Shown here: piece by piece, positions 9,775 through 32,119 of the stretch
Layout of the letters: each line of letters begins with the position of its first letter
How positions within the stretch are numbered: position 1 is the stretch's first letter
Virus record (IMG/VR): IMGVR_UViG_3300046167_000212
Coordinates: 1-35,098 of that record
Reading direction: 5' to 3' (one strand)
DNA: 35,098 bases
Source: a virus
The notes under the pieces: generated by a model
What the model saw: only the letters and a program-made list of their open reading frames with translations
What the model was told of the DNA's origin: nothing
Database searches by the model: none
Translations under genes and position numbers: made by a program

Positions 9775-11722
9775 ATGGCAGGATCAGCAACCGGGCCGGG
9801 CATGATGCCTACCAAAGGCATGCCACAACAAATGCTTGCGAGCGGCACTCCCACAGCAGGAATCAAGCCAGCGCCTAACGCAATAGGCATGGGGCAGATG
9901 TACGCCGGCGGTACACCTGACTTTAATGAGCGAACTGGGATGGGATATTTAGGTGGTACTCGTGACTTCGATGAAAGCGCAAATCCCAGCCCATTTCCAA
10001 ATGAGATTGGCGGCGGCCCAACTCCAGCATCAGGCGGCAAGGGTGGTGGTCAGCAAGGCGCCTGCACAACCAAATGTATATCAGCAAGCATCAGGCGGCC
10101 TCCAGCAAGCTATGGGCGCAACTCGCAGAGAGATGGGCTTTCAGCCTTCTCCAGTAAGAGGGTTCGGCTATCAAGCAAGTGATGTATCTCCAACGACCGG
10201 CGGTTACGCTGGTGATGTAGCTGCGCCTCGTACGGGGTATGCTGGTGACGTCCGCGGTACAGGTTATACCGCCTGCGCAAGTTGGGGCTCCAAGCGTGGG
10301 TTACGCTGGCGACGTCCGTGGTACAGGCTACACGGCAAGAGCAGTAGATGCGCCAAGCATGCGTTACGCTGGTGATGTTGGCGCTATTACTGGGCCATAC
10401 GCTGGAGACGTAACATCAGCGACAAGGACCATATGCTGGTGACGTTACTGGCATGGGATATACAGGCTCCCAGCATAGCGGGAAACATTGGTCAGTTCGT
10501 TAACCCCTTTGAGCAGCAGGTGGTTTCTGGTGCACTAGGTGATATTGAGCGTCAGCGTCAGATGCAAGCTAACCAACTAGGGGTCACAGTTCGCTGCGGC
10601 TAAAGCATTCGGTGGCTCACGTCAGGCTATCCAAGAAGCAGAGCTGGCTCGATCTGCAATGGAGCAAGGCGCGAGCACTGCGGCAGCACTACGTCAGCAG
10701 GGATTCGGTCAGGCTCTACAGGCTGCGGGGCAGCAAGCTCAAATGGGTGCTCGTGCGTCTGAGTTTGGTCTTGGCCAAGGTCTACAGGCTCAATTAGCAA
10801 ACCAAGCCTGCTAGACAAAGATTCGGTGAGTTTGGCGCACAACAGGATGTTCAGACTCAACTTGCCAACCAAGCGGCGCGGCAACGGTTTGGGGAGTTCG
10901 GTGCGCAACAGGGCATGCAAGCTGCATTAGCAAATCAAGCTGCAAGACAGCGATTTGGCGAATTTGGTGCCGGACAAGACATTCAAGCGCAATTAGCTAA
11001 CCAGCAAGCGCAAGCAAGATCTGCTGAATTTGGGGCAGGACAGAGCATCCAAGCTCAGTTGGCCAATCAGGCGGCTAGACAGCGCTTTGGTGAGTTCGGT
11101 GCGCAGCAAGACGTCCAGACACAGCTTGCTAACCAAGCAGCCCAAGCAAGAGCGGCAGAGTTTGGTGGAGGGCAAAGTATTCAAGCCCAACTTGCGAATC
11201 AGGCTGCCCGTCAAAGATTGGGCGAATTTGGATCTCAACAAGGCATGCAGGCGGCATTGGCTAATCAGGCCGCACGTCAGCGCTTTGGAGAGTTTGCAGG
11301 CGGTCAAGGCATACAAGCTCAACTCGGCTAACCAAGCGGCTCAGGCACGCGCACAAGAGTTTGGATTGGGCCAGAGCATGCAGGCGCAGCTTGCTAATCA
11401 GGCGGCAGGATTGTCAGGCTCACAGCAACGTATGGGCGCGGCTTCTCAACTGGCTAACTTGGCCAACCTTGGCTTTGGCATGGGTCAGACAGTACAGCAG
11501 CAAATGTCTCAGCAAGGTGCTATGCAGCAACAGCTCCAGCAGCAAATCATGAATGCGGCACGTCAGCAGTTTGAAGGCTTCCGTAACTACCCAGCTCAAG
11601 CGCTTGGTTACTACGCTCAGGCACTGGGTGCCACACCTACACCGCAGTCTAGTACAACTTCACGTCAGCCCGGTCTCTTTGACTATCTGACGCTTGGCGC
11701 ATCGATGTTCCCCGGGGGATAA
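9775..11722 (+). CDS. Repeat-rich putative ejection protein, interrupted by seven +1 frameshifts
   Basis: One gene is split into pieces in successive frames. It starts MAGSATGPGMMPTKGMP at ATG 9775 and ends LTLGASMFPGG at 11722. The intended path changes frame by +1 near 10057, 10262, 10425, 10465, 10581, 10807 and 11326. Removing one base at each joins conserved text: YAGDV-rich Gly repeats (about 10200-10470), then FVNPFEQQVVSGALGDIERQ, GGSRQAIQEAELARSAMEQ, and from about 10750 a 22-residue repeat of the type EFGAGQSIQAQLANQAARQR. The C-terminus holds Gln-rich helices. The NPFEQQVV...GGSRQA stretch occurs in many marine phage virion proteins. Corrected length is about 645 residues. It is either a sequencing artefact or a decayed gene. 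Confidence 0.7.
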
Positions 11723-18767: not shown

Positions 18768-19968
18768 ATGGCACAGCCAACCAACACCTTTGACAGCTAT
18801 GATGCTGTCGGTATCCGGGAAGATTTGGAAGACGTTATATATGACGTATCGCCGGAAGAAACCCCACTATATTCAGCTTGCGCAAAAGTCAAAGCAAGTA
18901 ACACTCTTCACGAGTGGCAGACTGACTCGCTTCGTTCTTCAGCGGCTAACGCTCACATTGAAGGCGATGCAACTACTGCAACTGCGCGTACCGCGACTTC
19001 ACGTCTCGGCAACTACACGCAGATCTTTAAGAACGCAGTAGTTATTCCTGACACAGACGAAGGTCTGAAGAAGGCAGGTCGTGCAGCGGAAGTTGCTTAT
19101 CAAATGCTCAAGACTGCTAAAGAGCAGAAGCTTGACATTGAGAAGGCGCTTTTCGACAACAACGCGCGCGCTGCTGGTAACTCAACCACAGCTCGTGAGC
19201 TTGCTGGTGCGCCAGCGTGGATGATCACCAACACTGACTTCGGTTCAGGTGGTGCAGACGCTACTGGTGACGGTACAGATGCACGTACAGACGGCACTCA
19301 GGCTGCTTTCTCTCAGACTCGTTTTGACAGCGTAATGCAGTCAATTTGGGAGCAAGGCGGAAACCCTGACTCTGTCTATCTGTCAGCTTTCCAGATGAAC
19401 GTAGCTCTTGGCTTTGCCGGGAACAACAACCAGCGTTCAACTGTTAAGGCAGAAGACGAGCGTGTTATCAAGCACATGGATGTGTATGTAACGCCTAAAC
19501 ACCTTTGGGCCTCCGCAGCGTAAGTTGCGAGAGATAATCGCGTGAACTGCTGGAAAGCTAAGTCGAAAGATATGCCAATCAGCAGCCAAGGTTCGCAGCA
19601 ATGCGTTCAAGGTTCAGAGACTAGGTCATGGAGTCCCACAGGGACAGTAAAGGCCCACGAGTGCGCGACATCCTACGGGATGAAGATATAGTCCGATACT
19701 CCAGCGAAAGCCGGAGAGCTTAGGATAAAGAGCCTAAGCATAACGATTGTGGGGTACAGTAGAGTTCATTCCATCGCGTGAGAACCGTTCGCGTGACGTC
19801 TTCATTATGCAAGACGATATGTGGGCTGTTGGTGTTCTTCGTCCAACTAAGAACATCGCACTTGCGAAGACTGGTGATGCGACTACACGTCAGGTGACTA
19901 CTGAGCTGACCCTCATTTGTAAGAATGAGAAGGCTTCAGGCATGATCGCTGATTGCACAACTTCTTAA
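18768..19968 (+). CDS. Major capsid protein (DUF5309-like), split by a group I intron
   Basis: Exon 1 is 18768-19496 (243 codons) and exon 2 is 19750-19968. Joined they encode 315 residues, reading across the junction as VYVTP|WGTVEFIPSREN, in frame. Unspliced message would stop nine codons into the intron (TAA 19521-19523). Motifs of the DUF5309/SU10-like capsid family are visible: DLEDVIYDVSPEETPLYS near residue 20, RTATSRLGNYTQIF, EIALAKTGD-like NIALAKTGDATTRQV, and the ending LICKNEKASGMI. The fold expected is HK97-like. A GAGG ribosome site precedes ATG and a strong terminator follows the stop. The family call is from memory of its motifs. Confidence 0.88.
19497..19749 (+). ncRNA. Group I self-splicing intron (subgroup IA-like), no ORF
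   Basis: A 253-nt insertion starting after exon U (19496) and ending in G (19749). P1 is GCCUAAA (19493-19499) with UUUGGGC (19504-19510), with the U.G pair at the splice site. P2 is 19514-19519/19524-19529 with a GUAA loop. P3 is 19538-19543/19663-19668. P4 is CUGCUG 19547-19552/CAGCAG 19580-19585. P6 is 19594-19597/19602-19605 with a GCAA loop. P7 is GACUA 19619-19623/UAGUC 19689-19693, inside the hallmark AAGAUAUAGUCC. An extra hairpin at 19633-19645 lies between P7 and P3, as in subgroup IA. P8 is 19670-19673/19678-19681 with a UACG loop, P9 is 19699-19716 with a GAAA loop, and P9.1 is 19718-19739. It is too short for a homing endonuclease and none is seen elsewhere. Confidence 0.95.
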
Positions 19969-28759: not shown

Positions 28760-29001
28760 GTCACATGCGTCGATGCATCGTCTGCAATGCAGTCATGATG
28801 CCATTTTTCTACAACGAGAAACCTCACCGCCTGCAAGGCTTCCGCTGTACCTGTGGTGTATGGGAGCGTGCGGTAGCAGATGAAAGGAATTTAACCTATG
28901 CCGACTTCAACAAAGCCGAAAAAGCAAAAGACCGTAGCCAAGCTAAGGGAAGAGGCCGCGGTATTACTCCAGAAGCTTGTCAGAATGAAGGCTGCGGATG
29001 A
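28756..29001 (+). CDS. Small zinc-ribbon protein overlapping ninG
   Basis: An 81-residue product on an ATGA overlap with ninB. Residues 1-40 carry CIVC and CTC (CIVCNAVMMPFF, then GFRCTCGVWERAV), a plausible four-cysteine zinc ribbon. The C-terminus (SQAKGRGRGITPEACQNEG) overlaps the start of ninG by 104 bases in another frame. The N-terminal zinc part is likely real; the tail may be a by-product of the overlap. No function is known. Confidence 0.55.
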   Translation: MSHMRRCIVCNAVMMPFFYNEKPHRLQGFRCTCGVWERAVADERNLTYADFNKAEKAKDRSQAKGRGRGITPEACQNEGCG

Positions 29002-29329
29002 GCACGGGCTTGCCTCTTGTGTGACCTGCGGGAAGCGACAGCACTACAAGGAAATGGATGGTGGGCACTTTATTAGCCGCAAATGGACTGCTACGAAGCT
29101 AATCGAAGAGAACATACACCCTCAGTGTAAAGGCTGTAACCAATACGCCAGTGGCCGGCATGATGACTACTCACTGTACATGGTAGACACCTACGGTATC
29201 GAGATGGTCAGAGAGCTGAACGATAAGAAGCGTGAGCTGTGTAAGCAGAACCGCATTGAGCTGGAAGATATTAAGGTGGAGCTGAAGCTAAGGATTGCAG
29301 AGCAAGCTGTACGCCTTGGAGAAAAATAA
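28898..29329 (+). CDS. ninG: NinG/Rap-like recombination endonuclease
   Basis: A 143-residue protein. The basic N-terminal coil (KPKKQKTVAKLREEAAVLL) leads to a Cys-rich core with C41/C44 (CVTCGK), MDGGHFISRKW with H57, and H74/C77/C80 (IHPQCKGCNQYASG), then a helical end. This is the NinG (Rap) family, an HNH-like, zinc-containing enzyme that resolves branched DNA recombination intermediates in lambda. AAAGGA eight bases upstream supports ATG 28898. It is unlikely to be the intron's homing enzyme because it matches NinG across its whole length. Confidence 0.88.
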   Translation: MPTSTKPKKQKTVAKLREEAAVLLQKLVRMKAADEHGLASCVTCGKRQHYKEMDGGHFISRKWTATKLIEENIHPQCKGCNQYASGRHDDYSLYMVDTYGIEMVRELNDKKRELCKQNRIELEDIKVELKLRIAEQAVRLGEK

Positions 29330-30553: not shown

Positions 30554-30860
30554 GTGGCAGCTACTAGACGGCAGAAAGTTCGCGCTGTGAAGGATGAAGA
30601 AAACAGACGCGCATTAAGCATTAGGGGTAAGGCCGAATACATCTTTGATTTAATTGATCAAATCGGCGAGCTTGACCCTAAGAAGGACGAGCACTTCGCA
30701 GCTAAGGTTCAGCAGAAGAAGACACAGGCTGAACTACGGACTCAAGATGCTCGCTAAGACGCTACCTGATCTCAAGCAAGTCGATGCTGACTTAACAAGT
30801 AGCGATGGTTCCATGACTCCACCAATGGTGATTGAACTTGTCGCAAAAGGTCTCGATTGA
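30554..30860 (+). CDS. terS: Terminase small subunit, with one +1 frameshift
   Basis: Start GTG 30554. The first frame gives MAATRRQKVRAVKDEENRRA, RGKAEYIFDLIDQIGELDPK and a helical KKTQAELRTQDA, then stops at 30757. The +1 frame continues AKTLPDLKQVDADLTSSDGS and SMTPPMVIELVAKGLD to 30860. A C-terminal VIELVA is typical of small terminase subunits, and the gene abuts terL. Removing one base between about 30748 and 30757 restores a ~101-residue protein. It recognises the packaging site and recruits terL. It is a probable sequencing insertion, otherwise a split gene. Confidence 0.7.
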
Positions 30861-32119
30861 ACTACCGCCTAAACTAGCCAGCCTCTTTACAGGCGAGGCT
30901 AGATACCGTTGCTCATACGGTGGCCGGGGAAGCGCTAAGACTCGCTCATTCGCTCTAATGACTGCCGTATGGGGTATGCGTTGGGGCGTAGCTGGTAAGC
31001 AAGGTCAGATCCTATGCGCTCGTGAACACCTTAACTCACTCGATGAATCCTCTATGGAAGAGGTCAAGTCAGCTATCCGCTCAGTTCCTTGCCTCATGGA
31101 TTACTACGAGATAGGCGAGCGATACATTCGTAGCCGGGACGGTAGGATCACATACGTGTTTGCCGGCCTACGCAGGAACCTCGATAGCATCAAGTCGAAG
31201 GCCCGTATTCTACTGTGCTGGGTCGATGAGGCTGAGACTGTTACTGAGACGGCTTGGCAGAAGCTTATCCCTACAGTGCGAGAGGACGACTCTGAGATAT
31301 GGGTAACGTGGAACCCTGAGAACAAGCACTCTGCTACGCACCATCGATTCCGGGTTAATGAGCCTGAGCAGTGCAAGATCATAGAGATGAACTGGCGGGA
31401 TAATCCGTGGTTCCCTCATGTGCTAGAACAAGAGCGTCAGGAAGACCTCAAGAAGCGCCCGGATGTTTACGATCATATCTGGGAGGGTGACTTCAGGATC
31501 TTCTCAGAGGGCGCGTACTACACGCAGGAGATGGCTAACGCCTTACACGAGAACAGGATAGATCGTGTGCCATACGAGCGGTCAGTAGGTGTAGGTGACG
31601 GCATGGGACTTAGGTGTAGGTGATTCTACGGCCATCTGGTTCGCTCAGTTTGTCGGCCCTGAAGTGAGGCTCATTGATTACTACGAGAACTCTGGGGTTG
31701 GGCTAGATCACTACGCACGCATCCTACAAGAGAAAGGCTACGTGTATGACCAGCACATTCTTCCGCATGATGTCCGGGTCAGGGAGCTAGGCAGTGGCCG
31801 GTCACGGCTAGAGGTTTTAGATAACTTAGGTGTACGCCCGGTACAGATTGCACCGCAGCTTAACGTAGACGATGGCATCCAAGCGGTCAGGTCTATGCTC
31901 GATCTATGCTACTTTGACAAGGACAAATGCGAGAAGGGTATCGATTGCCTCAGGCAGTATCGCCGGCAGTACAACGAGTCGATGATGGTCTGGAATGAGC
32001 GGCCCTTACACGACTGGACATCACACTGTGCGGATGCATTCCGCTATCTCGCTATCGGATACAGGAAGACCTCAGACTGGGGTGAACCTATCCGTAGGAA
32101 TCTTGCAGGGATTGTATGA
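30832..32119 (+). CDS. terL: Terminase large subunit, with one +1 frameshift
   Basis: Walker A lies at residues 30-37 (GGRGSAKT) and Walker B at 126-133 (ILLCWVDE, catalytic Glu 133), giving the ATPase motor. The ATPase part ends in KKRPDVYDHIWEGDFRIFSEGAYY and runs out of frame at 31594. The +1 frame resumes at TAWDLGVGDSTAIWFAQFVG, the RNase H-like nuclease start with its first Asp, continues HILPHDVRV and ends with CADAFRYLAIGY, another acidic active-site region. Removing one G near 31594-31595 joins them. The start TTG 30832 (or 30838) lies within the end of terS. Complete length is about 428 residues. Confidence 0.85.

Follow-up and report, generated by a model that had tools for sequence, protein, structure and literature searches.

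Short group IA introns at about 11 sites of an SU10-type phage capsid gene appear to spread between phages as DNA

Group I introns that interrupt capsid genes already have precedents (PMC3706429). Two introns in genes for virion structure were described in Cluster J mycobacteriophages: the 265 nt intron of BAKA lies in a tail gene and has no ORF, and that of LittleE lies in the major capsid gene. Splicing of both was demonstrated by RT-PCR (PMC3706429). In cyanophage S-PM2, the insertion site of the psbA intron is cut by F-CphI, an adjacent free-standing endonuclease with an Endo VII motif, in what is called collaborative homing (PMC6083498). In Bastillevirinae, several group I introns can occupy one phage gene (DNA polymerase, terminase); their mean length is 802 nt and many contain nuclease genes (PMC11878797). 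Two observations on intron movement are relevant as well: co-conversion of flanking markers is a known companion of homing (PMC3984707), and spread by reverse splicing was proposed for fungal rDNA introns (PMC1299323). No paper on introns in SU10/DUF5309 capsid genes was found in our limited search of the literature, which leaves their absence unproven.

Here, we analysed a viral DNA stretch of 35,098 nt (IMG/VR record IMGVR_UViG_3300046167_000212), referred to below as the window. Its capsid gene appears in the ORF list as two reading frames, at 18768-19523 and 19747-19968. The original prediction, made from the nucleotide sequence, held that a group I intron without an endonuclease gene separates them. 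The gene is composed of the following features:

18768-19496, plus strand: exon 1 of the major capsid gene (codons 1-243), ending in CCT with U at the 5' splice site; PF17236 positions 3-222, and intronless relatives
19497-19749, plus strand: group I (subgroup IA) intron, 253 nt, no ORF, last base G; RF00028, empty sites in relatives, and covariation in 23 introns
19521-19523, plus strand: in-frame stop codon if the intron is kept, ending ORF 18768-19523 and a truncated product of 251 aa
19750-19968, plus strand: exon 2 of the major capsid gene (codons 244-315 and the stop codon); PF17236 positions 223-291, and intronless relatives

An Rfam search of the window gave RF00028 as its sole match, at 19487-19716 on the plus strand, over the full model and with 79.9 bits (E 6.1e-19; gathering cut-off 50 bits). 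The boundaries follow from relatives in IMG/VR that lack the intron. In six of these (L006, L007, L008, L010, L011 and L012), the DNA matches the window up to 19496 and restarts exactly at 19750. The junction thus lies there and nowhere else, and the splice sites had been predicted correctly to the base. The nearest intronless relative is L007, with a capsid protein that is 97% identical and DNA that is 91% identical up to the insertion point. A cultured relative, Octadecabacter DB virus 2, likewise has an SU10-type capsid gene without an intron. The ends obey the group I rule, as T at 19496 is paired to the guide G and the intron terminates in G at 19749. According to the ORF list, the intron (19497-19749) contains no ORF and hence no endonuclease gene of its own.

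The host gene is an SU10-type major capsid gene (PF17236). Joining the exons keeps the frame (...VYVTP|WGTVEF...) and yields a protein of 315 aa that matches PF17236 SU10_MCP with 285.8 bits (cut-off 24.1 bits), compared with 202 and 68 bits for the separate pieces. In this alignment, exon 1 stops at profile position 222 and exon 2 begins at 223. Together with the Rfam match, the empty sites and the covariation described below, this bears out the prediction of a group I intron without an endonuclease gene in a major capsid gene.

The predicted fold contains the following elements:

19493-19510, plus strand: P1, GCCUAAA(CACC)UUUGGGC, 7 bp, in which the 5' exon GCCU and AAA pair with UUU and the guide GGGC; U.G at the splice site
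19501-19505, plus strand: P10 5' strand ACCUU, five pairs with exon 2 GGGGU at 19751-19755
19538-19544, plus strand: P3 5' strand UCGCGUG, which pairs with 19662-19668; covariation alignment
19619-19623, plus strand: P7 5' strand GACUA, which pairs with UAGUC at 19689-19693; RF00028 alignment, invariant in 23 introns
19624-19655, plus strand: P7.1/P7.2 hairpins between P7 and P3; covarying helices in alignment columns 153-184, a mark of subgroup IA
19682-19694, plus strand: GAAGATATAGTCC, the conserved P7 3' region; sequence and RF00028 alignment
19699-19739, plus strand: P9 and P9.1 hairpins; covarying helices

In an alignment of 23 related introns, 41 of the 62 consensus pairs showed compensatory two-sided changes, and the fold of the window intron beat 199 of 200 shuffles (z -3.3). 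P1, P10, the P7 signature and P9.1 are all present as first described. The covarying P7.1 and P7.2 hairpins, which are the mark of subgroup IA, sit between the P7 5' strand and the P3 3' strand, and their presence places the intron in this subgroup. These two helices serve in group I classification (PMC3984707). Judged by sequence and predicted structure, the window intron is a canonical representative of group IA and a structurally normal member of RF00028, with presumed splicing activity.

Splicing initiated by guanosine would restore the frame of 315 codons between codons 243 and 244, with the 5' exon end GCCU paired to the intron guide GGGC in P1 and exon 2 paired alongside in P10. When the intron is read through, eight codons are added before the stop that ends 27 nt into the intron, at 19523. 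Without splicing, a truncated capsid protein would be produced. Because this in-frame stop lies inside the intron, capsid output probably depends on splicing, as had been proposed.

Next, we focused on related introns. These were found by a scan for the P7-P9 signature, followed by alignment of the spliced capsid protein to each contig and by further scans and alignments; all records (L numbers) are metagenome-assembled contigs. Numbered by codon and phase in the window protein, the introns occupy sites 30/0, 86/2, about 100/2, 111/1, 113/2, 116/2, 120/2, about 123/0, 214/1, 241/2 and 244/0. This makes about 11 positions, of which about 100, about 123, 120 and 241 are from divergent capsid genes aligned at 31-37% identity and may be a codon or two off. 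The site of the window intron, 244/0, is also filled in L088, L099, L105, L200/L205, L204, L210/L211, L216 and L224. The intron at this site in L204 (3171-3435) belongs to a clearly different group I lineage. Five capsid genes contain two introns each (L086, L099, L105, L109 and L205). All but two of the related introns are about 240-275 nt long and lack an ORF; the exceptions, of 873 nt at about codon 100 (L109) and 921 nt at about codon 123 (L377), both lie in divergent SU10-type capsid genes. The original prediction that ORF-less introns of such a size are uncommon does not hold, as the 265 nt BAKA intron and the majority of the 30-odd relatives identified in this work are likewise short and ORF-less.

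As intron-bearing contigs were mostly found by their intron sequence, frequency can be read only from a sample chosen by portal gene and blind to introns, in which 5 of 56 complete capsid genes (about 9%) contained one. RF00028 searches over 80 whole records of this sample gave five matches, all in the capsid gene. Among 21 intron-bearing records picked by sequence, 20 had RF00028 matches, every one in the capsid gene, and a scan for the P9.1 signature, which is independent of the capsid, identified 29 loci, 27 of them in the capsid gene. As nearly all of these matches fall there, this is essentially a lineage of capsid-gene introns. It is unusual for one capsid gene to be repeatedly invaded, at about 11 sites, by introns that are mostly enzyme-less.

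The introns are matched to the sites that they occupy. At every site, the last four to five exon bases pair with the guide in P1, and guide and exon co-vary between sites (GGGC/GCCU, GUCU/AGAU, GCCU/AGGU and GCGC/GCGU). They do so even within one site, codon 111, where exon and guide are GCGU/GCGC in L119 and GCCU/GGGC in L196. P10 pairs better with its own exon than with the exons of other sites (permutation p 1e-4); the own-site test for P1 is biased, since the register was chosen on P1 pairing. From these pairings, the related introns look functional and adapted to their sites, rather than debris.

Closely related alleles differ in intron content. The capsid protein of L088 is identical to those of intronless L123 and L124, and its intron is 98% identical to that of the window, in capsid genes that differ by 11%. 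L099 and L105 are 99.3% identical over their common stretches and both contain the site-244 intron, and a second intron is found at codon 214 in one and at codon 113 in the other. We compared 13 intron-bearing alleles with the nearest allele without that intron (<10% divergence), in pairs that are partly non-independent. Exon differences were in excess within 6 nt of the intron (27 versus 6 expected), at 7-15 nt (26 versus 9, p 0.0016) and at 16-30 nt (29 versus 16, p 0.03), with no excess at 31-60 nt (25 versus 31). Summed within 15 nt, there were 53 differences versus 15 expected (p about 5e-5), almost all of them synonymous, in windows that were set after a first look at the data and that want confirmation in an independent set. 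Control pairs gave a ratio of 1.07 at the same positions. A first version of the test, which was rank-based over 7-30 nt and allowed a divergence of up to 15% within pairs, gave no more than a suggestion of such an excess (combined p 0.06).

The P1 target shows a similar pattern. At site 30, GCCT is found in 3 of 175 intronless alleles versus all eight intron-bearing ones, and at site 244 in 20 of 174 versus all nine. At site 30, even the U that must precede the splice site is missing from most intronless alleles; the intronless alleles at sites 86 and 116 contain the target more often than those at sites 30 and 244. As the local excess is almost entirely synonymous and the target is mostly absent from intronless alleles, the introns seem to arrive together with a short patch of donor exon. 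Such donor-like patches point to homing-like gene conversion at the DNA level, rather than to reverse splicing into the recipient's own mRNA. Selection on P1 and P10 after arrival could contribute to the patches nearest the site, although they reach beyond those positions. The mode of spread was originally called unclear; it can now be narrowed, as the flanking patches point to DNA-level gene conversion from intron-bearing donors, with a putative endonuclease behind it.

We therefore favour, with a probability of roughly 0.8, a family of group IA capsid-gene introns, presumably self-splicing, that spreads between phages at the DNA level through a presumed endonuclease. A break or gap at an intronless site would be repaired from an intron-bearing allele, and the repair would copy the intron and a stretch of donor exon that ranges from a few bases to about 30. 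The window copy contains no endonuclease gene, and either an enzyme acting in trans would make the break or this intron would be a deletion derivative of endonuclease-bearing ancestors. Exchange may also take place within one gene. The codon-30 intron of L205 (972-1221) has ends of the codon-30 type and, over a core of about 110 nt, is identical to its neighbour at codon 244 in that gene. Gene conversion between the two introns is the best reading. In the tree of intron cores, few deep branches are strongly supported and chimeras of this sort are a confounder, and we claim no count of jumps from that tree.

An unlikely alternative is that introns reverse-spliced into capsid mRNA, expected to be abundant and late, and reached the genome by reverse transcription and recombination. 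This would explain their confinement to the capsid gene and the sharing of target sequences among sites: GCCU occurs at three and AGAU at three of ten tabulated sites, which exceeds random T positions (p 0.002). However, the stability of P1 by itself favours GC-rich targets and may explain this sharing, the target is mostly absent from intronless alleles at sites 30 and 244, and a recipient mRNA would be unable to supply donor-like synonymous flanks. Reverse splicing may still account for the initial insertion at a new site.

Still less probable is that the introns are old and vertically inherited, with many losses by recombination with spliced cDNA. Some intronless alleles have kept intron-adapted codons, as shown by the 20 with GCCT at site 244. 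Codon 243 of intronless L110 retains the adapted exon end ACGCCT, as if an intron had been precisely lost, and L110 does not differ near site 244 from intron-bearing L210. Such codons are nevertheless gone from most intronless alleles, introns are common to divergent capsid genes and missing from near-identical ones, and at least nine changes are forced on well-supported branches of the capsid tree. It is very unlikely that the intron is retained as a regulator of capsid output, with splicing as a timing or stress switch. The interrupted gene is needed in large amounts and unspliced mRNA would give a truncated protein, but an intron at any site is found in only about 9% of the sampled relatives, the sites vary, and near-identical phages do without. 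Finally, although the raw sequence shows two separate ORFs, two genes, a broken capsid gene, a frameshift or an assembly artefact of 253 bases are ruled out by the exact empty sites, the strong Rfam match and the independent contig L088, with a 98% identical intron at the same site, which leaves such readings a negligible probability.

DNA-level spread as favoured here would call for something that breaks the intronless site. Pfam and PHROGs scans of most ORFs and genome-wide searches for HNH_3, GIY-YIG and phrog_1035 revealed no homing endonuclease in the window, and the only nuclease match in the endonuclease search of the window was a NinG-type junction endonuclease at 28898-29329. The long introns of L109 (6931-7803) and L377 (minus strand, ORF 1892-2584) each contain, within P8, a gene of the Endo VII/HNH type; one scan for relatives of the L109 endonuclease recovered nothing besides the query and two remote loci. 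Members of a sister clade (L097, L110, L113, L205, L210/L211, L216 and L385) have a free-standing gene of the Endo VII type at a distance of 1.5-3 kb downstream from the capsid gene. Free-standing genes of this type in the intron-bearing clade are:

L372, 1162-1464, minus strand: Endo VII-type gene of L110
L369, 3712-4014, plus strand: Endo VII-type gene
L370, 3843-4169, plus strand: Endo VII-type gene
L371, 2014-2298, minus strand: Endo VII-type gene

The sister-clade gene is a candidate trans-acting homing endonuclease and could just as well encode a resolvase; its co-occurrence with introns is confounded by membership of a single clade, in which the record of intronless L083 also has a match. 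We tentatively suggest, as a scheme about which we are doubtful, that enzyme-less introns at about 11 sites are moved, and exchange their cores as in the L205 chimera, via endonucleases acting in trans. This would be many-site collaborative homing on one structural gene.

By itself, the window intron is ordinary; the surrounding pattern of many sites, and of differences in intron content between near-identical alleles, is not. The capsid alleles are natural before-and-after pairs for how group I introns without an endonuclease spread in protein genes, as DNA or as RNA. In practice, common environmental phages can have a split capsid marker gene, which gene callers and capsid-based surveys may overlook or cut short. 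Two side observations concern other loci of the window. The terminase large subunit occupies two overlapping frames (30832-31623 and 31595-32119) with a +1 shift at a 13-base repeat, TAGGTGTAGGTGA, which may be a sequencing error, a true frameshift or programmed frameshifting. At 10915-11722, a protein consists of repeated AQ-rich units (QAQLANQAARQRFGEFG...) and the same repeat occurs in the neighbouring frames, which suggests frame shifts or indels in a repetitive gene.

Compared with other RF00028 introns of subgroup IA, the window intron shows no structural difference: it has the same core helices, the U.G pair at the 5' splice site, the terminal G and P7.1/P7.2. It resembles the LittleE and BAKA introns in being a group I-like intron in a gene for virion structure, with splicing in the window deduced from sequence. 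The LittleE intron differs in its length of 819 nt and its endonuclease gene. For LittleE and BAKA, one site per gene is known and no repeated invasion has been described, whereas the SU10-type capsid gene has about 11 sites. The Endo VII-type gene 1.5-3 kb downstream of the sister-clade capsid genes is reminiscent of F-CphI in S-PM2, with a putative role in homing, although no such endonuclease gene was found in the window. Like the introns of Bastillevirinae, those described here can occur several to one phage gene; the Bastillevirinae introns are longer and often nuclease-bearing, and none has been reported in a capsid gene.
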